Source: Candidatus Omnitrophota bacterium (GTDB lineage Bacteria; Omnitrophota; Gorgyraeia; Gygaellales; Profunditerraquicolaceae). From it: a DNA stretch of 36,773 nt. This document shows, piece after piece, positions 656 through 35,585 of this stretch. The stretch covers positions 1 through 36,773 of the forward strand of contig JAQUME010000006.1 in NCBI GenBank assembly GCA_028718245.1, read 5' to 3'. The position numbers and the translations under genes are program-made. The notes under the pieces were generated by a model. The model saw only the letters and a program-made list of their open reading frames with translations. It did no database searches and was not told the DNA's origin. Within the stretch, counting starts at the first letter, position 1, and every line of letters starts with the position of its first letter.

Positions 656-2926
656 ATGGCTAAAGACCCGGTTTGCGGAATGCAGGTAGATGAAAATAAG
701 GCTATTAAGGTGGAGCAGGAGGGCCTTATTTATTATTTTTGCAGTCAGCACTGCAAGGATAAATTTTTGCAGCATCCGGCTGAAAATAAACCGCTAAAAT
801 CGCAAGGTAAGAATATTTATACCTGTCCCATGCATCCTGAGGTTACGCAGGATGGACCAGGGGATTGCCCTAAATGCGGGATGCAGCTGGAACCGAAGAT
901 CATTTCCCTTGAAGGGGAGGAAATCAGTAAAGAAGAGGCGGCTTTGGCCGGCAAGTTCCGGATCGGGCTGGTTTTGACGATCCCGGTTTTTATCCTGGCC
1001 CTCGGAGAGATGCTTCCGGCATTCCATCTGAAAACCTTTAGCTCATCCGGTGTTTCGCGCTGGATACAGTTTATTTTGGCAACCCCGGTTGTGCTCTGGT
1101 CAGGGAGCATCTTCTTCGTAAAGGCCTGGCGATCGGTTCTGAATAAAAGCCCTAATATGTTCACCCTGATCGCTATGGGGGTGGCTGCTGCCTATGGTTT
1201 TAGCGCCACAGCCATGATTTTACCGGGTATTTTCCCCGCGTCATTAAAGGAGCACGGAGAGATAGGTTTATATTTTGAAGCAGCTGCGATCATCACGGTA
1301 TTGGTCCTCTTGGGCCAGCTCCTGGAAACAAGAGCCCGGAGCAGGACAGGCCAGGCAATAAAAGCATTACTTGGCCTTGCCGCAAAGCTGGCGCACCGCC
1401 TCAAGGAAGGTAAGGAGGAGGATATTGCCATAGAAGAGATTCATAAAGGTGATTTATTGCGCGTGCGTCCGGGTGAGAAGGTGCCTTTGGACGGCATAGT
1501 CATTGAAGGAAAAAGCAGCGTAGATGAATCAATGATCTCCGGGGAGCCCATGCCGGTTATCAAGAAAAGCGGGGACCGGGTGATCGGGGCAACTGTTAAT
1601 CAGACAGGAAGTTTTCTGATGAGGGTTGAAAAAGTCGGAGCAGAAACTATTCTTGCCCAGATCGTGGAGATGGTGGCCGCAGCGCAGCGCAGCCGCGCCC
1701 CTATTCAGAATGTTGCTGACAGAGTTGCAGCCTATTTTGTTCCTTCAGTCCTGGTATGCGCAGTCGCCGCCTTTATTGTTTGGTCCATATGGGGGCCGCA
1801 GCCGGCGCTGGCCTATGCCCTGGTTAGTTTCATTTCGGTCCTGATCATTGCCTGCCCCTGTGCCCTGGGCCTGGCAACTCCTATGTCGGTCATGGTCGGA
1901 GTTGGAAAAGGAGCACAATCAGGTATCCTGATCAAGAACGCTTCGGCCCTTGAAAAGTGCGAGGGGCTCACCTGCCTGCTTACGGATAAGACAGGGACCT
2001 TGACCGCAGGAAGCCCGCAAGTTACTTTTGTGATGCCGGGAAAAGATTGGGATGAACAGGGTTTGTTAAGCATAGCAGGTTCCGTAGAGCAGGCCAGCGA
2101 GCATCCCTTGGCCCGCGCAGTAGTGGAGCATGTTAAGGCAGCCGGCATACAGTTGGTTCCGGTTGAGGATTTTCAATCCGTAACCGGCGCCGGTATTAAA
2201 GGTAAAGTTAGCGGCAGGGTGGTTTTGCTTGGGAGAGAAGGGTTTATTGAAAATTCCGGCATAAATTTACCTGAAGGATTGAAAAACAAGGCTGGTGAGC
2301 TTGAGGAGAAAGCCCAGACAGTTTGCTGGCTTGCGGTTGACGGCCAAATAGCGGGCCTCCTCGGGATATCCGACCCCATCAAGAAAACAACCCCTGATGC
2401 TATCCGCCAGTTGCATAAAATGGGACTTAAGGTTATAATGGTGACAGGGGATAATGAAAAGACCGCGCAAGCCATCGCCAGAGATTTAGGGATAACCGAT
2501 GTTTACGCCGGGTGTGATCCAAAGGCCAAGCAGGATATCGTAAATAAATTAAAGAGTGCAGGAGAGAAAGTAATGGTGGCAGGCGATGGCATAAATGATG
2601 CCCCTGCTTTGGCAGAAGCCCAGGTTGGTATCGCCATGGGCACCGGAACCGATGTGGCAATTGAAAGCGCCGGGATCACCCTGGTCAAAGGGGACTTAAC
2701 CGGGATCGTCAAGGCCCTGCGCTTAAGCCGGGCGGTCATGCGCAACATCAGGGAGAATTTATTTTTCGCCTTTATCTATAATGTCCTCGGAGTCCCAATT
2801 GCGGCGGGTTTGCTTTATCCCTTTTTTGGGCTGCTTTTGAACCCGATGATCGCCGGCGCTGCAATGAGCTTCAGCTCGGTTTCGGTGATCGGCAATTCAT
2901 TAAGGCTGCGTAATTTAAAACTTTAA
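656..2926 (+). CDS. copA: Copper/silver-translocating P1B-type ATPase with N-terminal YHS domain and heavy-metal-binding (YTCPMHPEV...CPKCGMQL) domain
   Basis: [18 protein letters not shown] and [11 protein letters not shown] motifs; N-terminal DPVCGMQV...[10 protein letters not shown]. Confidence 0.93.
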
Positions 2927-2945
2927 AAAGGAGCTTGGTTGTAAG

Positions 2946-3782
2946 ATGCAAGAATTTATTGTCTGGTGGAACCATCTTCCCGAGCACACGAGCCCGGTTT
3001 TCTTTAAGATCGGCTTTATCCAGGTCCATTATTACGGCCTGATGTACCTGCTTGCTTTTCTTACGGTATATCTGCTTGTTTTGTACAGGCTAAAGAGTGA
3101 AAAGACCGGATTCAGAAAAGAGGTTGTAGAGACTTATTTCTTCTGGCTGGTTTTCGCGGTGCTCATCGGCGGCAGGCTGGGGTATGTGCTCTTTTATGAC
3201 CTGCCGTATTACTTAAAGCGCCCTTTAGAGATAATTCTCCCCTTTGATATTAATGACGGATTCAAATATACCGGCCTCTATGGGATGAGTTATCATGGGG
3301 CGCTCATCGCGATAATTATTACAACGGTGGTTTTTTGCCGCAGGCATAAGCTTGATTTTTGGCGCTTCACCGATCTATTGGCGCCGGCTGTGCCTTTAGG
3401 TTATACCTTCGGCAGGATAGGAAATTTTATTAACGGGGAGCTTTACGGTCGCGTCACTTCAGTGCCATGGGGAATGTATTTTCCTCTGGATCCTACCGGC
3501 CGGCTGCGCCATCCCTCCCAACTTTATGAAGCCTTCTTTGAAGGGGTATTTCTTTTTATCATCCTTTGGAGTTTGCGTAAGAAGGTGCGTCTTACCGGAG
3601 GGCTTTTTTCTTTATATCTTATAGGTTATGGAGCAATAAGATTTTTGCTTGAATTTTTCCGCCAGCCGGATAGGCAATTGGGGTTTGTGTTGGGTCCCTT
3701 TACCATGGGGCAGTTGCTTTGCCTTGCCATGATCTTATCCGGGGTGTTTATTATTGTAATCAGGAAAGGATCAGCCAAATGA
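2946..3782 (+). CDS. lgt: Prolipoprotein diacylglyceryl transferase
   Basis: GGRLGYVLFYD, GRIGNFINGELYGRVT and HPSQLYEAFFEG motifs; multi-TM protein. Confidence 0.95.
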   Translation: MQEFIVWWNHLPEHTSPVFFKIGFIQVHYYGLMYLLAFLTVYLLVLYRLKSEKTGFRKEVVETYFFWLVFAVLIGGRLGYVLFYDLPYYLKRPLEIILPFDINDGFKYTGLYGMSYHGALIAIIITTVVFCRRHKLDFWRFTDLLAPAVPLGYTFGRIGNFINGELYGRVTSVPWGMYFPLDPTGRLRHPSQLYEAFFEGVFLFIILWSLRKKVRLTGGLFSLYLIGYGAIRFLLEFFRQPDRQLGFVLGPFTMGQLLCLAMILSGVFIIVIRKGSAK

Positions 3783-6046
3783 AAAGAATTCTCATTTTTA
3801 TTTTGCCCATATTGATCATAGTAACCCTCGGATTCACTATCTCCGGAATTATGCAGGCCCGCTTCACGGAAGAAAAGCTCATGGATGATTTAATGAGAAA
3901 AGCCAGGGCAGTGGGTGAGAGCCTGGAGTTAGCCGCCAAATATATCCTGGTGAATAATGACCTGAAAGCAGCTAAACGCCTGGCCGATAGTTTCCAGAAG
4001 AGGGAGCGGCTGCAGGGCTGCGTTATTTACAACCGGGAGGGCCAGATCCTGGCAGTTACCGAGCAGTTTTCCTATTTAAATGATCAGGAGAGGCCTTACC
4101 TTAAAAATATCCTGTCTACGAAGACCCCCCGGGGAGCCATTGAGCAATTCAGGGAGTATTCGGTATACAGTTATATCCTTCCTGTTTTAGATGACGATGG
4201 CAACGTATTAGGGATGGTAGAAGTGATCTACGATACCTCCTATATGTTTACCACTTTAACCGAATTATGGAAAAAATTGAGCACTACTTTGATAGCCCTC
4301 ATATTGCTGATATTCTTAGTAACCCTTTTGATCCAGAGACAGATCTTTATTATGCCGGTGCGCAGGCTGACCCAGTGGTTCACCCACTTCCAGCGAGGGG
4401 ATACGGATAAGCTGCGGCCCTTTGCCGAAGAAAAAGGGGAATTCGGCAAGCTGGTCAGCGAAGTGGAGCAGGTGGCTTTAAGCATGAGGGTGGCCCGCCG
4501 GACTATCTCCGACCAGGCGCATGTGCGCCTGCAAAAAGAAGAATTATGGACCGAAGCCAAGCTCAAGGACCTTATTCACGCCAAGCTGGGGGATAATTCA
4601 CTTTTCGTGGTTTCTAACCGAGAGCCATATATGCATGTTCTTGATGAGAGTACCGGTAAATCCGCCTGCATTAGGCCGGCAAGCGGGGTGGTTACCGCGA
4701 TACACCCAATACTTTCTGCCTGCGGCGGAACCTGGATCGCCCACGGGAGCGGTAACGCGGATAGAAAATTCGTCAACTCCAAAGATAAGCTCGGCGTGCC
4801 CCCCGAAGACAACCGTTACATCTTAAAACGAGTCTGGCTAAGCAAAGAGGAGGAGCAGGGTTATTATTACGGGTTTTCCAACGAGGGCTTATGGCCTCTA
4901 TGCCATAACACGCATACTCGTCCGCTCTTCAAGGAGTCTGACTGGAAGATGTATAAAGAGGTAAACCGGAAGTTTGCCGACAGCGTTTTGGAGGAGCTGC
5001 CCGCAAATGATCCGTTTGTCTTTGTGCAGGATTATCATTTCACGCTTTTGCCTAAAATGATCAAAGAGAAGCGTCCCGACGCAAGGATCGCTTTATTCTG
5101 GCACATACCCTGGCCTACGCCGGAGGCCTTCATGATCTGCCCTTACCAGAATGAGATCCTGGAGGGGATGCTGGGGGCTGATCTGATCGGTTTTCATGTC
5201 CAGAACCATTGCAATAATTTTCTCGATACCGCCAACCGCCTGCTTGAGTCGCGCGTGGATACGGAGAAGTTCAGCGTTGTCAGGAACGGAAAAGAGACCT
5301 TTATCAGGGCTTTCCCGATAAGCGTTGACACGCGCTCAGGCACAGGTTCATTCAAGGTTGAGCCCTTGCGCCAGATCGAGCATTTAAAGAAGGAATTTGA
5401 ACTTGAGGGCAAGATAACGGCTCTGGGGGTTGACAGGATAGATTATACGAAAGGCATAGTTGAAAAATTACTGGCCATCGACAGGTTTTTGGAGAAGTAT
5501 CCCGAATATAAGACGAAATTCGTGTTCATCCAGTTGGCCGCGCCCAGCCGCACGCATATCAAGCGCTATCATGACCTGATCAGTGAGATCGATGAACTGG
5601 TCGAGAAGATCAACTGGAAGCATAGGGAAGGGGACTGGAGCCCGGTGATCTACCTGAAAAAACATTTTTCGCAGGATGATATCCAGCCTTACTATCAGCT
5701 TGCCGATATTTGTATCGTCAGTTCACTTCACGACGGGATGAACCTGGTGGCCAAGGAATATGTAGTGCAGAAGAACGATCTATCCGGGGTGCTGATCTTA
5801 AGCCAGTTTACCGGCGCCTCCCGCGAGCTCACCGACGCTATTATGGTCAACCCGTATTCAACGGAGGAGTTTGCCGAAAGCATAAAGCTGGCCGTCGAAA
5901 TGCCTAAAGAAGACAGGAAAAAGCGGATGGAGAATATGCGCAGGGTAGTTTCCGAGAATAACGTTTATCGCTGGGCAGCCGGTATCATTACCGAAATGAC
6001 CTCTTTGAAGAAAATAGAAGATAAAAATGCGCTACCTTCTGGATGA
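3779..6046 (+). CDS. otsA: Membrane-anchored trehalose-6-phosphate synthase (GT20): TM - Cache-like sensor - TM - HAMP-like - OtsA
   Basis: Probable start ATG 3779 (ATGA overlap with the lgt stop) rather than 3719; C-terminal GT20 motifs VVSNREPY, WHIPWP, GFHVQNH, DRIDYTKGI, DGMNLVAKEYV; N-terminal two-TM region of ~250 aa. Confidence 0.9.
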   Translation: MKRILIFILPILIIVTLGFTISGIMQARFTEEKLMDDLMRKARAVGESLELAAKYILVNNDLKAAKRLADSFQKRERLQGCVIYNREGQILAVTEQFSYLNDQERPYLKNILSTKTPRGAIEQFREYSVYSYILPVLDDDGNVLGMVEVIYDTSYMFTTLTELWKKLSTTLIALILLIFLVTLLIQRQIFIMPVRRLTQWFTHFQRGDTDKLRPFAEEKGEFGKLVSEVEQVALSMRVARRTISDQAHVRLQKEELWTEAKLKDLIHAKLGDNSLFVVSNREPYMHVLDESTGKSACIRPASGVVTAIHPILSACGGTWIAHGSGNADRKFVNSKDKLGVPPEDNRYILKRVWLSKEEEQGYYYGFSNEGLWPLCHNTHTRPLFKESDWKMYKEVNRKFADSVLEELPANDPFVFVQDYHFTLLPKMIKEKRPDARIALFWHIPWPTPEAFMICPYQNEILEGMLGADLIGFHVQNHCNNFLDTANRLLESRVDTEKFSVVRNGKETFIRAFPISVDTRSGTGSFKVEPLRQIEHLKKEFELEGKITALGVDRIDYTKGIVEKLLAIDRFLEKYPEYKTKFVFIQLAAPSRTHIKRYHDLISEIDELVEKINWKHREGDWSPVIYLKKHFSQDDIQPYYQLADICIVSSLHDGMNLVAKEYVVQKNDLSGVLILSQFTGASRELTDAIMVNPYSTEEFAESIKLAVEMPKEDRKKRMENMRRVVSENNVYRWAAGIITEMTSLKKIEDKNALPSG

Positions 6047-6833
6047 TCTGGATAAAATAAAAGATAAACTGCGGGGCAGGGACCTGTTACTATTCCTTGA
6101 TTATGACGGGACCCTCTCTCCGATCGCCGCTACCCCGGATAAGTCCGTGTTCTCGGAGGGGATGAGAGGCAGTCTAAAGAAGCTGACCGGTCAACCACGC
6201 TGCCGGATCGCGGTTATTTCCGGTAGGGGCCTGGAGAATATCAAGAAAAAAGTAGGGTTAAAGGATATCATTTATTCCGGTAATCACGGATTAGAGATCG
6301 AAGGCCCGCAGTTGAGATATAAGGCAGCAGTTTCCCCTTTATATAAGAAAGCCATCGGAGAGATAAAGGATTCTTTGACTGCCGGGCTTTCTAAAATTAA
6401 AGGGGCCATTATCGAGGATAAAGGCCTCTCTTTATCCCTGCATTACCGGCTGGTGAGAAAAAATGATATCCCCGCGTTGAAAAACATCCTTCGCCGGACA
6501 GTTACCGATCATCCGGCAAAAAAAAGGGTCATGGTCAGGCCGGGTAAAATGGTATTTGATATAAGGCCTGCCTCCGGGTTGGATAAAGGCAAAGTAGCCC
6601 TCTGGCTTTTAGCCAGGGAGAGTTTCAGGAGGCGCGGCCGCAAGGTTATCCCGATCTATATCGGGGATGATTCAACCGATGAGGATGCATTTGCCGCGTT
6701 GAAGGGCAAAGGAATTACCGTTTGCGTCGGCGGAGAAAGAAAATCCTCGGCGCAGTATTATTTGAAGGATACCGGCCAGGTAAGGTTTTTTCTGAGAAGA
6801 CTGGACGGCATACTTAAAGAGAGGGAAGTATAA
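6027..6833 (+). CDS. otsB: Trehalose-6-phosphate phosphatase
   Basis: LFLDYDGTLSPIA and IYIGDDSTDEDAF HAD motifs; overlaps the otsA 3' end. Confidence 0.93.
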   Translation: MRYLLDDLDKIKDKLRGRDLLLFLDYDGTLSPIAATPDKSVFSEGMRGSLKKLTGQPRCRIAVISGRGLENIKKKVGLKDIIYSGNHGLEIEGPQLRYKAAVSPLYKKAIGEIKDSLTAGLSKIKGAIIEDKGLSLSLHYRLVRKNDIPALKNILRRTVTDHPAKKRVMVRPGKMVFDIRPASGLDKGKVALWLLARESFRRRGRKVIPIYIGDDSTDEDAFAALKGKGITVCVGGERKSSAQYYLKDTGQVRFFLRRLDGILKEREV

Positions 6834-7507
6834 TGCCTCCTTCAGGAATGGAAACGCCTTTCGTATTCTACGCAAGTTCGCACATATCGGAGCTGACCGG
6901 GTTAAGGGCCTCTACTTTAGGCCAGCTGCTTGAGCTTATCAAGGATGTGCCCGGGGCTTCTATCTATCACCACACCCATAGGTTCCTGCAGCAGCACCAA
7001 TATTTATCTCCTGAACCGCCCAATGATTTCTCTTATTGGGTAGCGGATTGCTTAGGGGATGTTGAGTTGGGAGAAAAGCTGGCCAGCATCGATACAATGC
7101 AATTCCTGACTATCCGCAGCCTAAGGGAGAAGATCACGGCTACGATAGAGAAACATCTTGAAGCTGATCCGCTGGTAAAGATGAGGTTCGCCCGCTCGGG
7201 AGAAGAGTTCCACTTCATCAAATCAATAAGTTTTGTTTTTCCTACCAATTATGTCGCCCATGACCTGGATGAATTTATCCAGGCGCTTAAAAAGGTAACC
7301 ATTGATTCCATATACTTTCATATTTTTGAGGCGCGGCTGCGCCTGGAGAAACCGGTAAATGATTTCTCTAACTGGATCGGTTCGGCTATCGGTGATAAAC
7401 AGCTGGCGGATAAAATTTCCAGGCTTGATCCTTACACTTATACGCTTGAAGATCTAAGGAATAAGATCATATACCTGATTCAGAAGAGAGTCATTAGGTC
7501 AGTATGA
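6833..7507 (+). CDS. Tandem-duplicated small-domain protein, DUF5752-like (family name from memory)
   Basis: Two internal repeats: PPNDFSYWVADCLGDVELGEKLASIDTMQFLTIRSLREKI vs PVNDFSNWIGSAIGDKQLADKISRLDPYTYTLEDLRNKI; overlaps otsB and treT-like genes. Confidence 0.7.
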   Translation: MPPSGMETPFVFYASSHISELTGLRASTLGQLLELIKDVPGASIYHHTHRFLQQHQYLSPEPPNDFSYWVADCLGDVELGEKLASIDTMQFLTIRSLREKITATIEKHLEADPLVKMRFARSGEEFHFIKSISFVFPTNYVAHDLDEFIQALKKVTIDSIYFHIFEARLRLEKPVNDFSNWIGSAIGDKQLADKISRLDPYTYTLEDLRNKIIYLIQKRVIRSV

Positions 7508-8715
7508 TAAAAATAGACGATTATATCCCAATAGTAGGCCAGTCAATCATAGATGAGATCAGGATGCTTGCCGCTAAAATGGCAGGCAGGCGGGTGCAGC
7601 ATATCAACTCTACCGCCGTAGGAGGGGGGGTTGCCGAGATATTGAACCGCATGGTGCCTTTGCTTAATGAGGTAGGCATAAATTCCGGATGGGACCTCAT
7701 CAAGGGGGGAGAAAATTTTTATTCGGTGACAAAGAAGTTCCATAACGCCCTGCATGGCAGGCCCGAGACGATCGACCAACGGGATTTTGATGTCTTTATG
7801 GAGACCAGCCGGGAGAATATTGCTAAATTGGATACCTCCAGCGATATTGTCTTTGTGCATGATCCGCAGCCTATAGCCCTGGTTGAGAAAAAGAAGGGGA
7901 ATAAATGGCTTTGGCGCTGCCATATAGATGTCTCTAACCCCAATCGGAAGGTCTGGGACTTCCTGATGGATTTTATCGTAAAATATGACTCGGCGATATT
8001 CTCTGCCCCGGCTTTTTCACAGAGGCTTGCGATAAGGCAGTTCCTGATATCTCCATCCATTGACCCTTTAAGCGATAAGAACAAGGAGCTAGCGCAGGAG
8101 ATCATTGATGGGGTTTTGAGGAAATACGAAATTGTCCGGGACAAACCGATCATTACCCAGATATCCCGCTTTGATTATTTAAAGGATCCGTTGGGCGTTA
8201 TTGAGGCCTATTCGCAGGTCAAGCGTTATATAGATTGCCAGCTGATCCTTGCAGGTGGCACGGCCAGCGACGACCCGGAGGGCCAGAAGGTCCTGGATGA
8301 GGTCCTGGAAAAAGCCGGCAGTGATAAAGATATCCATATATTGCTCCTGCCCCAGAATGACATTGAAGTTAATGCCCTGCAGAGGGCTTCGGATATCATT
8401 ATCCAGAAGTCGATAAAGGAGGGTTTTGGGTTAACGGTAGCCGAGGCGCTTTGGAAGGCCAAGCCTGTAGTTGCCTCAAGCGTCGGCGGGATATCTTTAC
8501 AGATAAAGCATAAATACTCCGGATTATTATGCCACTCCATTGAAGGGGCGGCTTTTGCCATAAAGCAGCTTCTGCACAGCCCGGAGTATGCGAAGAAATT
8601 AGGGGCCAACGGCCGCGAACATATCAAGAATAATTTCCTGCTTACCCGCCATATCAAGGAATATATCCTTTTGTTTTTGTCGTTATACCATCCTGAAGAT
8701 GTGGTTAATTTGTAA
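7504..8715 (+). CDS. TreT-like trehalose glycosyltransferring synthase / GT4 glycosyltransferase
   Basis: HINSTAVGGGVAEILNRMVPLLNEVGINSGWDLIKG, VHDPQP, WRCHIDVSNPN and EGFGLTVAEALWKAKPVVAS motifs resemble TreT/trehalose synthase GT4. Confidence 0.85.
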   Translation: MIKIDDYIPIVGQSIIDEIRMLAAKMAGRRVQHINSTAVGGGVAEILNRMVPLLNEVGINSGWDLIKGGENFYSVTKKFHNALHGRPETIDQRDFDVFMETSRENIAKLDTSSDIVFVHDPQPIALVEKKKGNKWLWRCHIDVSNPNRKVWDFLMDFIVKYDSAIFSAPAFSQRLAIRQFLISPSIDPLSDKNKELAQEIIDGVLRKYEIVRDKPIITQISRFDYLKDPLGVIEAYSQVKRYIDCQLILAGGTASDDPEGQKVLDEVLEKAGSDKDIHILLLPQNDIEVNALQRASDIIIQKSIKEGFGLTVAEALWKAKPVVASSVGGISLQIKHKYSGLLCHSIEGAAFAIKQLLHSPEYAKKLGANGREHIKNNFLLTRHIKEYILLFLSLYHPEDVVNL

Positions 8716-8742: not shown

Positions 8743-8841
8743 ATGAATCTCGGAGGATGGATTTTGATGATAATTGCCTGGGGATTTATCCTGGGCATGG
8801 CTGTTTTCTGCTTCAGAAGGATATTCCGCAAGAACAAATAA
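8743..8841 (+). CDS. Unannotated 32-aa single-TM small protein
   Basis: MNLGGWILMIIAWGFILGMAVFCFRRIFRKNK*; strong purine-rich SD (ggggagggg) upstream of ATG; below the ORF track size cutoff. Confidence 0.6.
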   Translation: MNLGGWILMIIAWGFILGMAVFCFRRIFRKNK

Positions 8842-10621: not shown

Positions 10622-10697
10622 TTCCGATTGATTCCAGAAACGGTCCCGCTTTACGTCCCGGCTTTGGATCTAAGAACGTCCCTCTCAAAAATAATAC

Positions 10698-10726
10698 TTG
10701 CAAAATTCCCAAAAATAGCATATACT
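10698..10726 (+). promoter_or_regulatory. Promoter of tetR-type gene (TTGCAA-N17-TATACT), giving a probable leaderless mRNA
   Basis: -10 ends 6 nt before ATG 10733; no SD. Confidence 0.55.
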
Positions 10727-10757
10727 TCAATTATGAATGTAAATTCATTAATTGAAG
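10725..10757 (+). promoter_or_regulatory. Candidate TetR operator dyad CTTCAATTA-TGAAT-N4-ATTCA-T-TAATTGAAG
   Basis: Perfect 9-bp outer arms and 5-bp inner arms (one bulged nt), overlapping the -10 box and start codon. Confidence 0.65.
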
Positions 10758-11398
10758 ATAAATTCATTACGGAAAAACCGGAGTTATCCTTAAGCCGTAG
10801 GGAGAGGGACAAGCTCTTGCGCCGGGCGGATATCCTGAGGGCGGCCGAGCACGTGTTCGCCCTGAAGGGGTATTATGAGGCGACCATCCAGGATATCGCA
10901 AGAGAGGCGCAATATGCCACCGGCACCGTCTATTTATATTTTAAGGACAAGGAATCGCTCTACTTCTCGCTGGTGGAGCGTAAATACAGCGATCTTCTGG
11001 CAATTTTAAAAGAGCGTACTTCCGTTGCCCGGGCTGCAAGGGAAAAGCTCGAAATATTTATCCATGAGAACCTTGGTTTTTTCGAGCGGAACCAGGATTT
11101 CTTCCGCATATTCGTTTCGGAAGGGAATAAGAGCCAGGCGCTAAAGGTAGGCAGGTTCCATAAATTGTCCGTGATCAAGCAGCACCGGGAGTTTGTTACC
11201 GAACTGGTCAAGCTTGGGCAGGAGGAGCGCCTGATCAGGAGCGATTTTTCGGCTAAACAAATAGGGGATGTGCTTATCCCGATCTTTATGTCCGTAGTTT
11301 TTAACTGGCTCAAAGAGGAATCTAAAGGAGCCAAGAGTTTAAGCCGGATGTCCGGTTTTATCCTGGATATGTTCTTAAACGGCGCTGGAAAAAAATAA
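10733..11398 (+). CDS. TetR/AcrR-family transcriptional regulator
   Basis: ILRAAEHVFALKGYYEATIQDIAREAQYATGTVYLYFKDKESLYFSLV HTH; start reassigned from 10628 to ATG 10733. Confidence 0.92.
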   Translation: MNVNSLIEDKFITEKPELSLSRRERDKLLRRADILRAAEHVFALKGYYEATIQDIAREAQYATGTVYLYFKDKESLYFSLVERKYSDLLAILKERTSVARAAREKLEIFIHENLGFFERNQDFFRIFVSEGNKSQALKVGRFHKLSVIKQHREFVTELVKLGQEERLIRSDFSAKQIGDVLIPIFMSVVFNWLKEESKGAKSLSRMSGFILDMFLNGAGKK

Positions 11399-12682
11399 AT
11401 GAAACTAAAATCCATCTTGCTCATTTCAGTTATTTTCTTAACCGGCCTTTTCAGCAGCCTTTACGCTGCCGAAGAGGTACTTTCCTGGCAGGACTGTATT
11501 AAAGAAGCGGCGAAAAATCACCCGGACCTTATTGCGGCAGTGGAGGAGATAAAACAATCCCAGGCTGCCAAAAAAATTACCGCCAGCACTCTTTTCCCCC
11601 AGATAGAGGCTAATGCGAGCGCATCAAGAGCCAGGACCGCATCAGACAGCGCCCCCGGGGTGACTGCCGATAGCTATAGTTATGGAGTAAGCGCGACTCA
11701 ATTGATATTCGACGGGACCAAGACGATCCAGGATGTAAAGGCTGCCTCGGAGACCATTAAGGCCTCTCAGCAGAACTACAGGTTTACATCTACCCAGGTC
11801 AGGCTGAACTTACGCACTGCGTTCATTAATTTGCTCCAGGCCCAGGAATTGATCAGGGTTACGGAGGATATTATCAGGATACGCAGGTCAAACCTGGAGC
11901 TGATAACCTTGCGTTATGAATCAGGCCTTGAGCATCGCGGGGCATTGTTGACTGCGGAAGCAAATTTAGCCCAGGCTGAATTTCAACTCGCCCAGGCAAA
12001 AAGAGAGATCGGGCTTGCTCAAAGGCAGTTGACCAAAGAGATGGGGAGAAAAGAATTCATTCCAATGATGGTAAAAGGCGATTTCGAGGTTGTTGATCCT
12101 GCAAAGGAGGAGCCGGACCTGGAATCCTTAGTCAGGAATAATCCGTCTTTGCAGCAGCTTATCGCCCAGAAAAATTCCGCGGAGTTCAGTTTAAGGTCGG
12201 CTTATGCCAATTTTTCTCCCACTTTGACCGGCGCAGCGGGCGCCAATAAAGCAGGCACCCATTGGACGCCGCGGGGGGATAACTGGAACCTGGGCCTTGC
12301 TTTATCGATGCCGATATTTGAAGGAGGCTTAAGGCTGGCGCAGGTATCCCAGGCTCAAGGTCTGTTGAATCAGCTTAGGGAGAATGAAAGAAGCACCAGG
12401 GATGGTTTGGTTGTCAGCCTGGCCAGGACCTGGGCGGCTTTACAGGATGCTGTTGAGACAGTAGGCGTCCAATACAAAAATCTTATTGCTACCGAGGAGC
12501 GTTCAAAAATTGCCGAGGCGGAATACGCCACAGGTTTTATTACCTACGATAACTGGACGATCATTGAGGATAATCTGGTGCAGGCCAAAACTACTTATTT
12601 AAGCGCCCAGGCTAATGCGTTATTGGCCGAGGCGAATTGGATCCAGGCGAAAGGAGAGACTTTGGAATATGCGCAAAATTAA
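11399..12682 (+). CDS. TolC-family outer membrane efflux protein
   Basis: Signal peptide, coiled-coil repeats, NLGLALSMPIFEGG motif. Confidence 0.92.
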   Translation: MKLKSILLISVIFLTGLFSSLYAAEEVLSWQDCIKEAAKNHPDLIAAVEEIKQSQAAKKITASTLFPQIEANASASRARTASDSAPGVTADSYSYGVSATQLIFDGTKTIQDVKAASETIKASQQNYRFTSTQVRLNLRTAFINLLQAQELIRVTEDIIRIRRSNLELITLRYESGLEHRGALLTAEANLAQAEFQLAQAKREIGLAQRQLTKEMGRKEFIPMMVKGDFEVVDPAKEEPDLESLVRNNPSLQQLIAQKNSAEFSLRSAYANFSPTLTGAAGANKAGTHWTPRGDNWNLGLALSMPIFEGGLRLAQVSQAQGLLNQLRENERSTRDGLVVSLARTWAALQDAVETVGVQYKNLIATEERSKIAEAEYATGFITYDNWTIIEDNLVQAKTTYLSAQANALLAEANWIQAKGETLEYAQN

Positions 12683-13646
12683 ATCAAAAATAATCATCGG
12701 GGTATTGGTTTTGTCGGCTGTTTTAGCCTTTGTTATGATCAGGGCTAAAGGTAAAGGCAAAAGCGATGAAATAGTCAAGGAGGTCACCCCGTCCATCGGG
12801 GCGATCCAGACCTATATTTCCACGACCGGAACAGTCCTGCCTAAGAACCGCCTTGAGGTTAAGCCGCCGGTGAACGGCCGCATTGAAAGTATCCTCGTGC
12901 AGGAGGGTCAGAAGGTTAACTTGGGCCAGACCTTAGCCTGGATGAGTTCTACCGAGAGAGCCGCGCTTTTAGATGCTGCCGAGGGGCAGGGGGAAGAAGT
13001 ATTAAAATATTGGAAAGAGGTTTATAAGCCTATCGCGTTGCTGGCGCCGATCAACGGAGAGGTTATTGTGGCTACTACCCAACCGGGGCAAACCGTTACC
13101 ACGGCTGATGCCGTGATCGTCTTATCCGACCATCTTATTGTCCGGGCCCAGGTGGATGAGACCGATATCGGCAAAATTAAGTTAGGCCAGAAGGCGGTAA
13201 TCATTATTGACGCCTACCCGGATGATAAGATTAATGCCGTTGTCGAGCATATTTATTACGAATCTGAGACGGTCAATAATGTCACTATCTATAAAGTTGA
13301 CCTTCTGCCGGAGCAGGTCCCGCAGTTTTTCCGCTCGGGAATGAACGCTACCGTAGATTTTATTGAGCAGGAAAGGGAAAAAGCCCTGCTCCTTCCGGTT
13401 GAAGCCATTTATAAGGATAAAGACGGTGATTTTGTTTTGCTCAAGAAAAACGGAGAGATCCAGCCGATACGGCAGGCCGTGCAAGTGGGGATAAGCGACG
13501 ATAAAAACACCGAGATAATCTCGGGGATAAGCGTAAATGACAGGGTAGTGGTAAAGAACGCGAAGTTCGTGCTCCCTGCCAGCGACGTGGGTTCAAGCCC
13601 ATTTACGCCTTTCGGCCAGAGAAAAAACTCTAACGGTAAGAAGTAA
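12669..13646 (+). CDS. Periplasmic adaptor (MacA/HlyD-like) with very short hairpin
   Basis: Start ATG 12669 (MRKIKSKIIIGV); NGRIESILVQEGQKVNLGQTLAWMSS ... LLAPINGEVIVATTQPGQTV lipoyl halves. Confidence 0.88.
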   Translation: MRKIKSKIIIGVLVLSAVLAFVMIRAKGKGKSDEIVKEVTPSIGAIQTYISTTGTVLPKNRLEVKPPVNGRIESILVQEGQKVNLGQTLAWMSSTERAALLDAAEGQGEEVLKYWKEVYKPIALLAPINGEVIVATTQPGQTVTTADAVIVLSDHLIVRAQVDETDIGKIKLGQKAVIIIDAYPDDKINAVVEHIYYESETVNNVTIYKVDLLPEQVPQFFRSGMNATVDFIEQEREKALLLPVEAIYKDKDGDFVLLKKNGEIQPIRQAVQVGISDDKNTEIISGISVNDRVVVKNAKFVLPASDVGSSPFTPFGQRKNSNGKK

Positions 13647-13657
13647 GGTTTAAGCCG

Positions 13658-15628
13658 ATGATAGAAGTAAAGAATATATCCAAAACATACCAGATGGGCA
13701 AGGTCCAGGTAAAGGCCCTTTCCGATGTCTCCTTAAAGATCGATAGCGGGGAATTCGTGGCGATCATGGGCGCTTCGGGCTCGGGCAAATCCACCCTTAT
13801 GCATATCCTGGGATTGCTTGACCGGCCGGATTCCGGATCTTTTTATCTCGGAGATATTGAAATAACCAAGCTCTCCGATATAGAGTTAGCGGATTTAAGG
13901 AACAGGCTTATCGGCTTTGTCTTCCAGCAGTTTCATTTATTGCCGCGGATGAGCGCTTTGGAGAACGCCGAGCTTCCTCTGGTCTACGCGGGGAAAAGGC
14001 ACTTAAAGGACAGGGCGATGCGGGAGCTGGAGGAGGTGGGTTTAAAAGACAGGGTCCGCCACAGGCCCAATGAAATGTCCGGCGGCCAGCAGCAGAGGGT
14101 GGCTATCGCCCGGAGCCTGGTCAATGACCCTTTGATCATACTGGCCGATGAACCCACGGGTAATCTTGACTCAAAAAGCAAGGAAGAGATAATCGGGGTG
14201 TTGCAAAAGCTTAATCAAAAAGGAAAGACCGTGGTGATCGTCACGCATGAAAAGGAGATCGCCGCCTACTGCCGCCGGGTCATCCAGATGCGCGACGGCG
14301 CGATAATCTCCGATATACGCAGCCAGGAGGGGAGTAAGATTTCGGAGGTCTCTTCCATTGAGGACACCCTGGTAAGCGGCATACTCTCAAAAAAACACAG
14401 TGCTTCCGGAGGGACCAAATTCTTTGATTACCTGCGCCAGGCAGTATTCGCCATGCTTTCCCATAAGATGCGTTCCATTCTTTCCATCCTGGGCATATTG
14501 ATCGGGGTTACTTCAGTCATCGCCATGCTGGCATTGGGCCAGGGTGCCAAGGATGCCATTGAAAAACAACTGTCAAGTTTGGGCTCTAATCTTCTGATCG
14601 TCATGCCGGGGTCTCCAAAAGTACACGGGGTTGCTTTGGAAACCGGGGCATTTACGCGGTTTACCTTTAATGACGCTTCGGCAATAGCCAAACTGGGGGA
14701 TGAGGTAAACCGGGTGTATGCTGCCGTAACCGGCAGGGGGCAGTTGGTTTATAAGGATGAAAACTGGAATACCCAGGTGGATGGGGTAGGTGTGAATTAC
14801 CCCAAGATGCGTAATGCCGAGCCGGCAGTGGGGAGGTTTTTCACCGAAGAGGAGGTTAAACTACGCAGCAAAGTGGTGGTTATCGGCACGACCGTAGCCA
14901 GGGAGCTCTTCGGCGAGGAAAATCCAGTCGGTCAAACCATCAAGATAAATCTTTTGAACTTTAAAGTTATCGGAATACTTCCCCCTAAAGGGGCAAGCAC
15001 CTTCAGGGACCAGGATGATGTCGTGGTCATACCGGTGACTACCGCTATGTACAGAGTATTCGGCAAGCAATATATAGATTATATTTTTGTTGAAGCAAAA
15101 GATCCTGCCTCCGTAGAATCGGCCCAGGATTCCATCACCCAGCTTATCATAAAGGTTCACCGGCTGAAAAAGGACGAGGAGGATACTTTTCAGATCCGCA
15201 ATATGGCCGATATAAGGAAGACCCTGGAGTCTACCACCAAGACCATGTCAATGCTTTTGGGGGTGATCGCCGCCATATCCCTTTTGGTCGGCGGGATAGG
15301 CATTATGAATATCATGCTTGTTTCGGTTACTGAGCGCACGCGGGAGATCGGGCTGCGTAAGGCGATAGGGGCGACCAACAAAGATATAATGGTGCAGTTC
15401 CTCATAGAGGCGATGCTGATGTCTTTTCTCGGCGGGCTTTGCGGTATTCTGCTGGGATGGGGGGTAGCGACATTGATCACGATTTTTGCCGGCTGGTCAG
15501 TCAAGGTCTCTTCGTTTTCGGTTATACTGGCAACCTCATTCTCCCTGGCTGTAGGAGTGATCTTCGGGCTCTGGCCGGCGCAAAAAGCCAGCCGGCTTGA
15601 TCCTATCGAAGCGCTGCGTTACGAATAG
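13658..15628 (+). CDS. MacB-like ABC transporter (ATPase-permease fusion)
   Basis: [23 protein letters not shown] and [11 protein letters not shown] motifs plus FtsX/MacB permease region. Confidence 0.93.
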
Positions 15629-18361: not shown

Positions 18362-19738
18362 TTGTTATATAAGAAACAAATAATTTTTAGTATTGCGCTA
18401 TCATCCCTGTTCCTTATCTTTTCCCCGGTTTTCAGCCAGGATAACCAGCCGATCCCCGGCGCCGAACTCAATCTAACCGATACCATCATCCTTGCTTTTA
18501 AAAACAATAAAGATATCCAGATACAGGAGAGGGAGATCACCATTGCCAACGCCGATATACTCGGAGCCACCAGCAATTTTCTGCCTCAGATAAACCTGGA
18601 GGGAACATATACTCATAACGCTAAAGTATTTACCCCCTCGAATATCTTCACCGGATTTAAAAACGATAACCTGCTCGATCTTTCCCTTGCTCAATCTGTT
18701 TACAGCGGCGGGTTTAATATGGCCAATCTCAATCAGGCCAAGCTCTCTCTGGACGCGCAGAAAGAGACCCTGCGCGCCAAGAAATTGGATGTGGAGTTTG
18801 ACGCCAGGAGGCTTTATTACGGGCTTTTGCTTGCGTATGAAACAGAACGCATTGCCAAGGATGCCCTGGATCAGGCGATAGAGCATTACGAAGATGTAAG
18901 GCGGATGTATGAGCAGGGGACTGCTTCGCGTTTTGACATGCTGCAATCCGGGGTGCAGGTTTCTTTGCTTGAACCGGAGGTGGTCAGGGCAAGAAACGAT
19001 ATTGAATCGCTGAAGGCGGATTTGAATAAACTTCTTGCCCGAAAAGTGGATTTTCCCATAGAAACAAAAGAAAAGCTTTCCTATTCCATCACGGAAATAA
19101 GGGAGAGTGAGTTTTTAAAAAGTGCTTACCTGGAGCGTCCGGAGATAAAACTTAAATCCCTGGGCATAGATATTGATAAGTGGGGTATCCAGATGGCCAG
19201 ATCCGGCTATCGTCCGCAGGTTAATATCCAGGCGGACTATTATTACCGTTCTAATAACCTGAGCAATATGATCAATGAGAGTCATAAGAATTGGAGCGCC
19301 GGGATATCGGTGAATATTCCCATCTTTGAAGGCTTTTCCACTAAGGCCAAGGTTGACGCGGCAAAGGCGCGCTTCGCCCAGGCCAAACTCAGCAAGGATA
19401 ACTTAGTTGACCAGATCGCCGTAGAGGTACGCAAGGCCTGTCTTGACCTTAAGGAATCCGAGGCGATCATCAGGTCCCAGAAGGATAATGTCGGGGAGGC
19501 GCAGGAGGCCTTAAGGATAGCCGAGGTCAGTTACGCAAACGGTGTCGCGATCAATTTGGATGTTTTAGACGCCCAGGTTTCCCTTGCCCAGATCCAGAGG
19601 AACCTGGCTTCGGGTATTTACGATTATTTGATGGCGCAGGCCTATCTTGACCGCAGCATCGGCCGTTCCGTATTAAGCCTAGCGCCAGGCGCGCTGCCCA
19701 AAGTGAGCCATGGAGGAGCTAATGAAAAAAAAGGTTAA
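18362..19738 (+). CDS. TolC-family outer membrane efflux protein (second copy, TTG start)
   Basis: Signal peptide, NWSAGISVNIPIFEGFSTKAKVDAAKARFAQAKL; SD AAGGAG upstream of TTG. Confidence 0.9.
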   Translation: MLYKKQIIFSIALSSLFLIFSPVFSQDNQPIPGAELNLTDTIILAFKNNKDIQIQEREITIANADILGATSNFLPQINLEGTYTHNAKVFTPSNIFTGFKNDNLLDLSLAQSVYSGGFNMANLNQAKLSLDAQKETLRAKKLDVEFDARRLYYGLLLAYETERIAKDALDQAIEHYEDVRRMYEQGTASRFDMLQSGVQVSLLEPEVVRARNDIESLKADLNKLLARKVDFPIETKEKLSYSITEIRESEFLKSAYLERPEIKLKSLGIDIDKWGIQMARSGYRPQVNIQADYYYRSNNLSNMINESHKNWSAGISVNIPIFEGFSTKAKVDAAKARFAQAKLSKDNLVDQIAVEVRKACLDLKESEAIIRSQKDNVGEAQEALRIAEVSYANGVAINLDVLDAQVSLAQIQRNLASGIYDYLMAQAYLDRSIGRSVLSLAPGALPKVSHGGANEKKG

Positions 19739-20552
19739 ATTGATGATCCTGATCGCCGCTCTTTTTGTCGCCGGGATAGTTTACGCGGTGTATTTTGTGG
19801 TAGAGAATAATCACAAGAAGGAAATAAAGGTCTCTGGCAATATCGAAGGTGATGATGTGCGCATATCTTTCCGCGTGGAGGGCCAGATCACCGAATTGCT
19901 TACCGACGAAGGCAAGGTTGTCAAAGCCGGAGATATAGTGGCGCGCCTGAATACCGATGAGCTGACCAAGGAAAGGGATAATGCCGCTGCCGCGCTGAAA
20001 GCTGCGGAATTTGATTATGAACTGGCAAAGATAGATTATCAGAGATCGGAGAACCTGCTTAAAGAAGGGGCGGTTTCCGCGCAAAAAAGGGATCAGGACA
20101 AAACTGCCTACGATGCCGGCAAGGCAAAGGTGGAACAGTTGAAAGCATCCCTGGCCCTGGCTGAAACCCGCCTGGGTTTCGCCGAGCTTGCCAGCCCCCT
20201 GGACGGTTTTATCCTGGTTAAGAGCAGTTTAGCCGGAGAAGTAGTTAAGTCGGCCACCCCCGTCTTTACCGCCATTGACCTGCATAATATCTGGGTCACC
20301 GCTTACATCGATGAAAAAGACCTGGGCAGGGTTAAACTCGGCCAGAAAGCGGAGGTAGTTACCGATACGTTCCCCGGGAAAAAATATGCGGGATGGGTTT
20401 CTTTTATCTCAAGCCAGGCGGAGTTCACCCCTAAATTCATCCAGACCCAGGAGGAGAGGGTTAAATTAGTCTACCGTATCAAGGTCAGAGTGGATAATTC
20501 CAGCCTAGAATTAAAACCGGGCATGCCTGCCGACGCCTACATAATCGAATAA
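19722..20552 (+). CDS. HlyD/YbhG-like periplasmic adaptor
   Basis: SGNIEGDDVRISFRVEGQITELLTDEGKVVKAGDIVARL; start ATG 19722 with GGAGG upstream. Confidence 0.9.
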   Translation: MKKKVKLMILIAALFVAGIVYAVYFVVENNHKKEIKVSGNIEGDDVRISFRVEGQITELLTDEGKVVKAGDIVARLNTDELTKERDNAAAALKAAEFDYELAKIDYQRSENLLKEGAVSAQKRDQDKTAYDAGKAKVEQLKASLALAETRLGFAELASPLDGFILVKSSLAGEVVKSATPVFTAIDLHNIWVTAYIDEKDLGRVKLGQKAEVVTDTFPGKKYAGWVSFISSQAEFTPKFIQTQEERVKLVYRIKVRVDNSSLELKPGMPADAYIIE

Positions 20553-33392: not shown

Positions 33393-35585
33393 ATGAAAAT
33401 AGCCAATCGAATATCCCTCTCATTCTTAATCCTCATTACACTCATCACCGTCATCGCTTCCTCAATTATTTATCTTATCGCCAAGGATAACCTTCGTAAC
33501 GCGATCTATGCGCAATTGGAGATAACCGTTCAGCAAAGAAGCCGTAATTTGGAGACATACCTGGAAATGCTTAAAGTTTCCACAGTGCAGTTCTCCAACA
33601 GCGTTGTTTTAGAGAACCTCTTGAAGGCGCTCAAGAATGATCCCAGGGATTCTAAGGAGGCCTTTGATATCGCCATGAAAAGGCTGAGGATGACCAAGGA
33701 GGATGACCCGGAAATTTATGAATTTCTACTTTTAGACGCTTCCGGCATGGTGGTTGCTTCTACCGACGAAGGCAGCATAGGGCTGGATAAATCTAAAGAC
33801 GAGTATTTTCTCAATGCCGGAAAAAATGTTTTTATCAAGGACGCCTATTATTCCGAGCAGTTAAAAGAGCGCCTTATCGCCGTATCCGCTCCTTTCTTGG
33901 ACAGTAACACCAGTGAATTTATCGGGGTGCTGGTTGCCCGGATTAAAATGGCGGGGATAGATAAGTTGATGCTGGAATCAGCCGGTGTCACCAGGTCCGG
34001 AGAGGTCTATATCGTAAATAGAAACGGCTTTATGATCACGCCTTCGAAATTCCTAAAAGACACTTTCCTAAAGCAGAGGGTTGATATCAGCGGTTTCAAG
34101 AAAGGTCTGCTTGACAGGCAGGTGACCATTTCTACGGATTACCGGGGGGTAAAAGTCCTGGGCAGCCATGTGTATATACCTGAAATGCAATGGTATCTCC
34201 TGGCGCAGATCGACGAAAAAGAGGCCTTCGCGCCTTTAGCCAAGCTCTATATACTCTTCTTGGCCATATTGTTCACCGTGCCGCTATTTGCCTATTTATT
34301 AAGTATGTATCTTACCAAAGTTATCGTGGATCCCATTTACAAGCTGCAGAAAGGGATGGAGATAGTCGGGCAAGGGAATTTAGAGCATAAAGTCGCAACC
34401 GCGGCCAGGGATGAGATCGGCCAGCTGTCCAGGGCATTTGACAAGATGATCGGAAATTTGCAAATGAAAGAGGCTAAGCTGATAACACTCAACCGCGCGG
34501 TTGAGCAGAGCCCGGCTGCGGTGACTATCACCGATGAGAACGGTATCATAACTTATGTTAATCCTAAATTCGAAGAGATGGCCGGGTATTCCGCGGCAGA
34601 GGTGATCGGCCGGAACCCGAGTATACTCAAGTCAGGCCAGCAGGGACCCGAATTTTATAAAGTGCTTTGGGAAACTATCCTTTCAGGCAGGACCTGGCAC
34701 GGAGAATTCCATAACAGGAAAAAGAACGGCTCCTTGTATTGGGAAAGTGCTTATATCTCGGCGGTCAGGGATTTGAAAGGGGAGATCACTAATTTTATCG
34801 CGGTCAAGGAGGATGTAACCGAACGCAAGAAAATGCTCGAAGAGTTGGAAAACAAGAACAGGGAGTTGCTGAAGTTGGATACCCTGAAAACCGAATTCGT
34901 TTCCGTAGTTTCCCATGAGCTGCGCACACCGCTATCCATCATCAAAGAGGGGGTCTCACTCGTCCTTGACGGAGTGATCGGAGAGATCAACTCCACCCAG
35001 AATAAGATCCTTACTACCTCCAGGGATAATATTGATCGCCTGGCCCGGATCATTAACAGCCTTTTGGATATCTCCAAAATCGAATCCGGCAAGGTGGAGT
35101 TGAAAAAGAAATCCGTTGATACCAGGGCCTTGATAAAGAACGTGGTTTCTTTGTTTGAAGCCAAGGCGCAGGAAAAAGGCCTGGAGGTGAAGGTAAGCCT
35201 CCCGCCGGAAGGGGCGTTAAATCTATACATCGACGAAGACAGAATAATCCAGGTCTTTACCAATCTCATCGGCAATTCCCTTAAATTTACCGAAAAAGGG
35301 CATATCGGTATATCGCTGGTTGATAAGGGCAAGGAGTTTGAGTTCGCGGTCAGTGACACCGGTATCGGAATTTCGGCCGAAGACCTGCCTAAGGTCTTTA
35401 AGAAGTTCATGCAATTCGGCCGGGTCGCCGGCAACGGCGAAAAGGGGACGGGTTTAGGGCTTTCCATTGCCAAGGGCCTGATAGAACTGCATAATGGCAG
35501 TATCAGGGTTGAGAGTGAATCCGGAAAAGGCTCAAAATTCATTTTTACCCTTCCAAAGCAGCTAGCTGGCCTAAGTAATGGATAA
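33393..35585 (+). CDS. Sensor histidine kinase (dCache-HAMP-PAS-HisKA-HATPase)
   Basis: Periplasmic sensor between TMs, HAMP, PAS, SHELRTPLSIIKEG H-box, GTGLGLSIAKGLIELH. Confidence 0.94.
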   Translation: MKIANRISLSFLILITLITVIASSIIYLIAKDNLRNAIYAQLEITVQQRSRNLETYLEMLKVSTVQFSNSVVLENLLKALKNDPRDSKEAFDIAMKRLRMTKEDDPEIYEFLLLDASGMVVASTDEGSIGLDKSKDEYFLNAGKNVFIKDAYYSEQLKERLIAVSAPFLDSNTSEFIGVLVARIKMAGIDKLMLESAGVTRSGEVYIVNRNGFMITPSKFLKDTFLKQRVDISGFKKGLLDRQVTISTDYRGVKVLGSHVYIPEMQWYLLAQIDEKEAFAPLAKLYILFLAILFTVPLFAYLLSMYLTKVIVDPIYKLQKGMEIVGQGNLEHKVATAARDEIGQLSRAFDKMIGNLQMKEAKLITLNRAVEQSPAAVTITDENGIITYVNPKFEEMAGYSAAEVIGRNPSILKSGQQGPEFYKVLWETILSGRTWHGEFHNRKKNGSLYWESAYISAVRDLKGEITNFIAVKEDVTERKKMLEELENKNRELLKLDTLKTEFVSVVSHELRTPLSIIKEGVSLVLDGVIGEINSTQNKILTTSRDNIDRLARIINSLLDISKIESGKVELKKKSVDTRALIKNVVSLFEAKAQEKGLEVKVSLPPEGALNLYIDEDRIIQVFTNLIGNSLKFTEKGHIGISLVDKGKEFEFAVSDTGIGISAEDLPKVFKKFMQFGRVAGNGEKGTGLGLSIAKGLIELHNGSIRVESESGKGSKFIFTLPKQLAGLSNG

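Follow-up and report, generated by a model that had tools for sequence, protein, structure and literature searches.

The window, a 36,773-nucleotide stretch of the Candidatus Omnitrophota contig JAQUME010000006.1 (assembly GCA_028718245.1), carries a single uninterrupted 755-aa open reading frame at 3779-6046 (+) in which a trehalose-6-phosphate (T6P) synthase of family GT20 is fused to a transmembrane sensor. From the N- to the C-terminus, the parts are a first transmembrane helix (TM1), a single Cache domain, TM2, a divergent HAMP, a helix of near-constant length and the GT20 domain. The fusion is the first gene of a tightly overlapping otsA-otsB-DUF5752-treT operon. Overlaps of 1 to 20 bases occur at lgt/fusion (3779), fusion/otsB (6027), otsB/DUF5752 (6833) and DUF5752/treT (7504). 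Domain limits were taken from an AlphaFold2 (AF2) model and hydropathy. The genes and features are as follows, with their basis in parentheses.

2946-3782 (+): lgt, overlapping the fusion start (ATGA); not a conserved neighbour (sequence, Pfam)
3779-6046 (+): sensor-fused otsA (Cache-HAMP-GT20), 755 aa (translation, Pfam, homologues)
3788-3856 (+): TM1, residues about 4-26 (hydrophobic stretch in the translation; helix 2-59 in the model)
3857-4267 (+): extracytoplasmic single Cache, residues about 27-163 (WalK Cache profile match, Foldseek, sub-cut-off Pfam)
4274-4348 (+): TM2, residues about 166-190 (translation; helix 154-206 in the model)
4349-4507 (+): HAMP, residues about 191-243, with P193, G207 and E221-x-G223-x-L225 (AF1503 profile matches, Pfam in relatives, conserved positions)
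4508-4546 (+): signalling-helix joint, residues about 244-256 (L225-W257 spacing; starts of soluble homologues)
4547-6004 (+): GT20 trehalose-6-phosphate synthase domain, residues 257-742 (Pfam PF00982; PDB 5jij; catalytic positions)
6027-6833 (+): otsB, trehalose-6-phosphate phosphatase, overlapping the otsA end (Pfam PF02358; TIGR00685 over cut-off)
6833-7507 (+): DUF5752 protein, conserved operon member (Pfam PF19027, E 1.1e-70)
7504-8715 (+): TreT-like trehalose synthase, GT4 (Pfam PF21269; NF041139 E 4e-114, below its cut-off)

The start codon is the ATG at 3779, which overlaps the lgt stop codon (ATGA). Homologues share this start point, and a TTG start at 3719 was dismissed on that ground. 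A preliminary description had proposed a GT20 enzyme joined to a transmembrane Cache/HAMP-type sensor in one frame, with the caveat that a sequencing frameshift might have merged two separate genes. The 755-aa frame and homologues with the same order of parts bear out the fusion. Frameshift or chimeric assembly is excluded by the many independent genomes, from several assemblies and phyla, with a fused frame of the same length and order. Sensor, HAMP and enzyme are also all under purifying selection (dN/dS about 0.03-0.13, rough values with dS near saturation), which further argues against two genes merged by sequencing or assembly error, and such an error has a negligible probability. The fusion gene is genuine.

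Elsewhere in the window, a possible 32-aa single-TM protein (MNLGGWILMIIAWGFILGMAVFCFRRIFRKNK), read by eye, lies just past treT at 8743-8841. There are two efflux clusters, one with TetR, outer-membrane efflux protein (OEP), HlyD-like and MacB-like genes (10628-15628) and one with a second OEP/HlyD pair (18362-20552).

Sensor, joint and enzyme

The N-terminal half resembles the receptor half of sensor kinases. A profile built from 53 homologous N-termini gave a match to 5is1, the Cache that WalK/YycG exposes outside the cytoplasm (E 1.9e-5), and weak ones to AF1503 HAMP structures (E 0.02-0.1), with Cache and HAMP in the correct order. The AF2 model of residues 1-285 has a mean pLDDT of 81, and its best Foldseek match is a full-length WalK model over 276 columns (E 2.3e-11). 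This top match is an integrative model and not a crystal structure, so the Cache fold is claimed from the next matches, the crystal structures of the WalK, KinD, DcuS and CitA sensor domains (target-normalised TM about 0.5-0.8). Family profile and fold search thus agree with the Cache/HAMP identity on which the preliminary description had made its proposal depend, and for which it had suggested the AlphaFold/Foldseek comparison. Its extracytoplasmic Cache-like region is likewise present, at a length of about 137 aa and not ~155. Conserved Cache residues are F72, G80, Y84, P135 and G145, with R75, E76, Y132, D152 and Y155 nearly so; no ligand specificity can be read from them or from the sequence.

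At curated cut-offs, GT20 is the sole Pfam model passed by the window fusion protein. The Cache models stay below theirs (sCache_3_2 21.0 vs 28.4, E 3.9e-4; dCache_1 25.6 vs 45), and HAMP PF00672 gives no match at E <= 1, so both the Cache and the HAMP identity are argued from family profile and fold. Pfam HAMP does match in 7 of 26 family members (best 1.1e-4). A canonical dCache-HAMP-PAS histidine kinase in the same window (33393-35585) served as positive control and scores 40.5 bits for HAMP; the HAMP of the fusion is therefore divergent, and the scan is not insensitive. The predicted HAMP follows TM2, with helices to residue 205 and at 221-251. Its marks P193, G207 and L225 are invariant across the sampled family, and the E-x-G motif is absent in acidobacterial members. 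Model confidence falls to about 56-74 over HAMP and helix, in predictions made for monomers only.

The joint between sensor and enzyme is of nearly constant length. The predicted helix extends past HAMP to residue 251, and L225 of HAMP is separated from W257 by 32 residues in 69 of 72 sequences. Such fixed spacing, despite a HAMP identity to distant members of just 24%, is expected of a rigid coupler and not of a loose tether. Most soluble Omnitrophota homologues examined start exactly or nearly at the equivalent of W257 (MWTK...), and the fusion point therefore lies at about residue 256. The sensor module has thus been gained by, or lost from, an already complete enzyme.

The enzyme half matches Pfam GT20 (PF00982) at residues 275-740 (E 3.9e-128, 428.6 bits vs a curated cut-off of 32.5). 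AF2, hydropathy and Pfam together place the domain start at 257 or 275 and its end at 742. Among solved structures, OtsA enzymes come closest (5jij, E 3e-87). Residues R281, G303, Y363, W372, D418, H442, R553, K558, R591 and D652 match E. coli OtsA, as does the LVAKE stretch at 656-660. We take these aligned residues to be the donor and acceptor positions of the E. coli active site. The ten positions and LVAKE are nearly unchanged across the compared sequences, and every position checked against E. coli OtsA is intact, in line with the complete GT20 domain and intact catalytic motifs first proposed. The genome assembly (92% complete) contains no second GT20.

The GT20 domain might instead make a related compound, such as glucosylglycerol phosphate or some other disaccharide phosphate. 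The score for the NCBI OtsA equivalog TIGR02400, 433.1 vs a cut-off of 564.85, falls short and would fit such an enzyme. However, among named single-function synthase models the OtsA model scores highest, at 433 vs 326 for glucosylglycerol-phosphate synthase (GgpS). Donor and acceptor positions also agree with E. coli OtsA, and otsB comes next in the operon. We consider a different product highly improbable and treat the enzyme as a trehalose-6-phosphate synthase.

Distribution, operon and history of the fusion

Full-length fused homologues with the same size and order of parts run throughout the Omnitrophota; by our count, roughly 78 of the 270 genomes sampled have one. The close type is present in about 54 of the sampled genomes and the type at 40-47% in 23. 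Outside the phylum, full-length homologues with about 45% identity were found in Acidobacteriota and in a single Bacteroidetes MAG. In 17 of 247 sampled acidobacterial genomes the match begins near the N-terminus (again our count), and further Acidobacteriota have related two-TM N-termini.

The genes downstream of the fusion are largely constant. Among Omnitrophota-type loci with enough flanking sequence, otsB follows in 51 of 54, DUF5752 in 40 of 46 and treT in 39 of 46; all three are also retained at several acidobacterial loci. The DUF5752 gene (window 6833-7507) is thus a conserved part of this operon in Omnitrophota and Acidobacteriota alike, and no paper naming DUF5752 was found in the openly licensed literature. 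At 17 of 45 loci (e.g. L021:5678-6730) the gene next to the fusion, on either its upstream or its downstream side, encodes a mechanosensitive channel of the MscS type; no such gene was detected in the window's own genome. At the same locus L021, a CdaA-type c-di-AMP cyclase with YbbR repeats lies upstream of the fusion (1722-3167). The cyclase is clear in one genome only and was set aside as evidence.

If the N-terminal half is a receptor, its message could be T6P itself, with sensing setting a T6P level that regulates metabolism, and trehalose as osmolyte not being what is controlled. T6P signalling is established in plants, and the receptor-plus-enzyme layout is like that of cyclases. The near-constant presence of otsB next door speaks against this, as do a TreT that yields trehalose without T6P and MscS neighbours that suit an osmolyte. 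We regard T6P as the message as improbable and favour trehalose as the product that matters.

Soluble GT20 enzymes occupy the same otsB-DUF5752-treT operon in other Omnitrophota (L118-L120). Soluble homologues start at the joint and some share the operon, which argues that the sensor is a module added to a working enzyme. A GT20 tree sets the soluble enzymes of Omnitrophota apart in a clade with support of 99/97, and the fused enzymes cluster together apart from one long-branched single-TM Aminobacter protein. This 605-aa GT20, encoded on Aminobacter plasmid pAA02 (L123:4782-6599), has a single N-terminal TM without a sensor and groups among the fused forms. A topology with all fused enzymes in one clade is not rejected (p-AU 0.161), so a history of one gain and one loss of the fusion is likely, not proved. 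Spread via plasmids was considered and rejected; plasmid matches were of the soluble type only, none covering 80% of the query.

Eight acidobacterial genomes encode, in one ORF, a GT20 preceded by the membrane domain of a Na+/H+ exchanger (PF00999) (L126:2567-5551(-), L127, L131:2144-4876(-), L132 and L140-L143). The assignment was based on Pfam in four genomes and on tblastn with the exchanger part in four more. No paper on an exchanger-GT20 fusion was found in the openly licensed literature.

A candidate receptor for trehalose synthesis

We suggest, as the reading that we think fairly probable, that the gene product is a one-component membrane receptor with trehalose-6-phosphate synthase as its output domain, in which a cue at the Cache would act through HAMP to switch the GT20 enzyme. 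The Cache would sense an extracytoplasmic cue, most likely tied to osmolarity or the state of the envelope. TM2 and a dimeric HAMP would relay a rotation or piston movement into the length-fixed helix, and the helix might set the attached GT20 to a lower or a higher activity. The product of the next, overlapping gene, OtsB, would convert T6P to trehalose, and TreT could provide a second route. The architecture with its conservation, the operon and the intact catalytic residues are demonstrated here; we infer that the protein dimerises and passes on a signal, as well as the nature of that signal, the direction of control and the regulation of the enzyme. The role is probably in osmotic or envelope stress, which is favoured because of the chemistry of trehalose and the MscS neighbours in relatives.

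The main rival is that the N-terminus is a mere membrane anchor, which would place trehalose synthesis at the membrane, close to MscS or other partners, and leave catalysis unregulated. The sensor-free Aminobacter GT20 with its one N-terminal TM and the MscS genes adjoining the fusion in relatives fit an anchor, and the Acidobacteriota GT20 on a polytopic exchanger domain indicates that membrane attachment recurs without Cache. However, an anchor would require no folded Cache, no HAMP signature and no fixed spacing between HAMP and enzyme, nor a dN/dS in the sensor close to that of the enzyme. We therefore consider a mere anchor unlikely. The receptor reading draws on the WalK receptor-half fold, the invariant HAMP marks, the intact catalytic positions, the spacing, the operon, selection, MscS and the sole GT20 in the genome. 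Against it stand the sub-cut-off Cache and HAMP scores, an acidobacterial HAMP without E-x-G, the lack of a detected MscS in the window's genome, the drop in model confidence and the TIGR02400 miss. The one-component scheme that was originally proposed, in which an external signal would control trehalose synthesis, is the best-fitting reading.

Each part of the protein has known counterparts. The receptor halves of WalK/YycG and KinD (TM-Cache-TM-HAMP) share fold and order with the N-terminal half of the fusion, but their output is PAS/HisKA/HATPase and that of the fusion a GT20 sugar transferase. Soluble OtsA (E. coli; mycobacterial 5jij) has the same catalytic domain, active-site positions and otsB neighbour and, in contrast, lacks TM, Cache and HAMP. 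One-component Cache-HAMP diguanylate and adenylate cyclases also join receptor and enzyme through HAMP in one chain; they make second messengers, whereas the fusion feeds into an osmolyte pathway. The outputs best known from Cache-HAMP receptors are kinases, cyclases, diguanylate cyclases and chemoreceptors. In a census of Cache domains, Cache architectures carry known signalling outputs, the SMP_2 family excepted, and trehalose is unmentioned (PMC4822843). In Thermoproteus tenax, the msc-gt-tpsp trehalose operon groups a mechanosensitive channel gene with a GT4 enzyme and the synthase and phosphatase of T6P, and a model of its role in osmotic stress has been put forward (PMC3634074). The operon of the fusion has the same three enzyme activities, joined in relatives of the window by a channel gene. 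In T. tenax, unlike in the window fusion, TPS is fused to TPP and regulation acts through GT without a receptor domain, and the 2013 paper held this operon type unique to Thermoproteus and Pyrobaculum (PMC3634074). Searches of the openly licensed literature found no paper on HAMP with T6P synthase except an unrelated fungal one, and none on Glyco_transf_20 with HAMP. The parts are known; no description of them in this combination turned up in the openly licensed literature that can be searched. To the Cache-HAMP-GT20 fusion noticed earlier, the present analysis adds the cross-phylum family, the otsB-DUF5752-treT operon and the MscS neighbours in relatives.

In one conserved family spanning at least two phyla, a bulk stress-protectant enzyme occupies the slot of signalling outputs. 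Tentatively, and at a little short of even chances, the family would represent a cross-phylum receptor class with osmolyte synthesis as output, in which Cache-HAMP directly gates trehalose-6-phosphate synthase. Little is settled about how bacteria adjust trehalose production to the osmolarity outside at the level of the enzyme. This family offers a way to test it on a single protein, and its relatives without a sensor, found in the same operon, can serve as natural controls. If the reading is true, such control would bypass kinases, second messengers and transcription, and the exchanger-GT20 fusions would then point to T6P synthase as a general effector wired to membrane sensing. The enzyme itself may thus be the sensor of the outside through which the cell controls a stress protectant.
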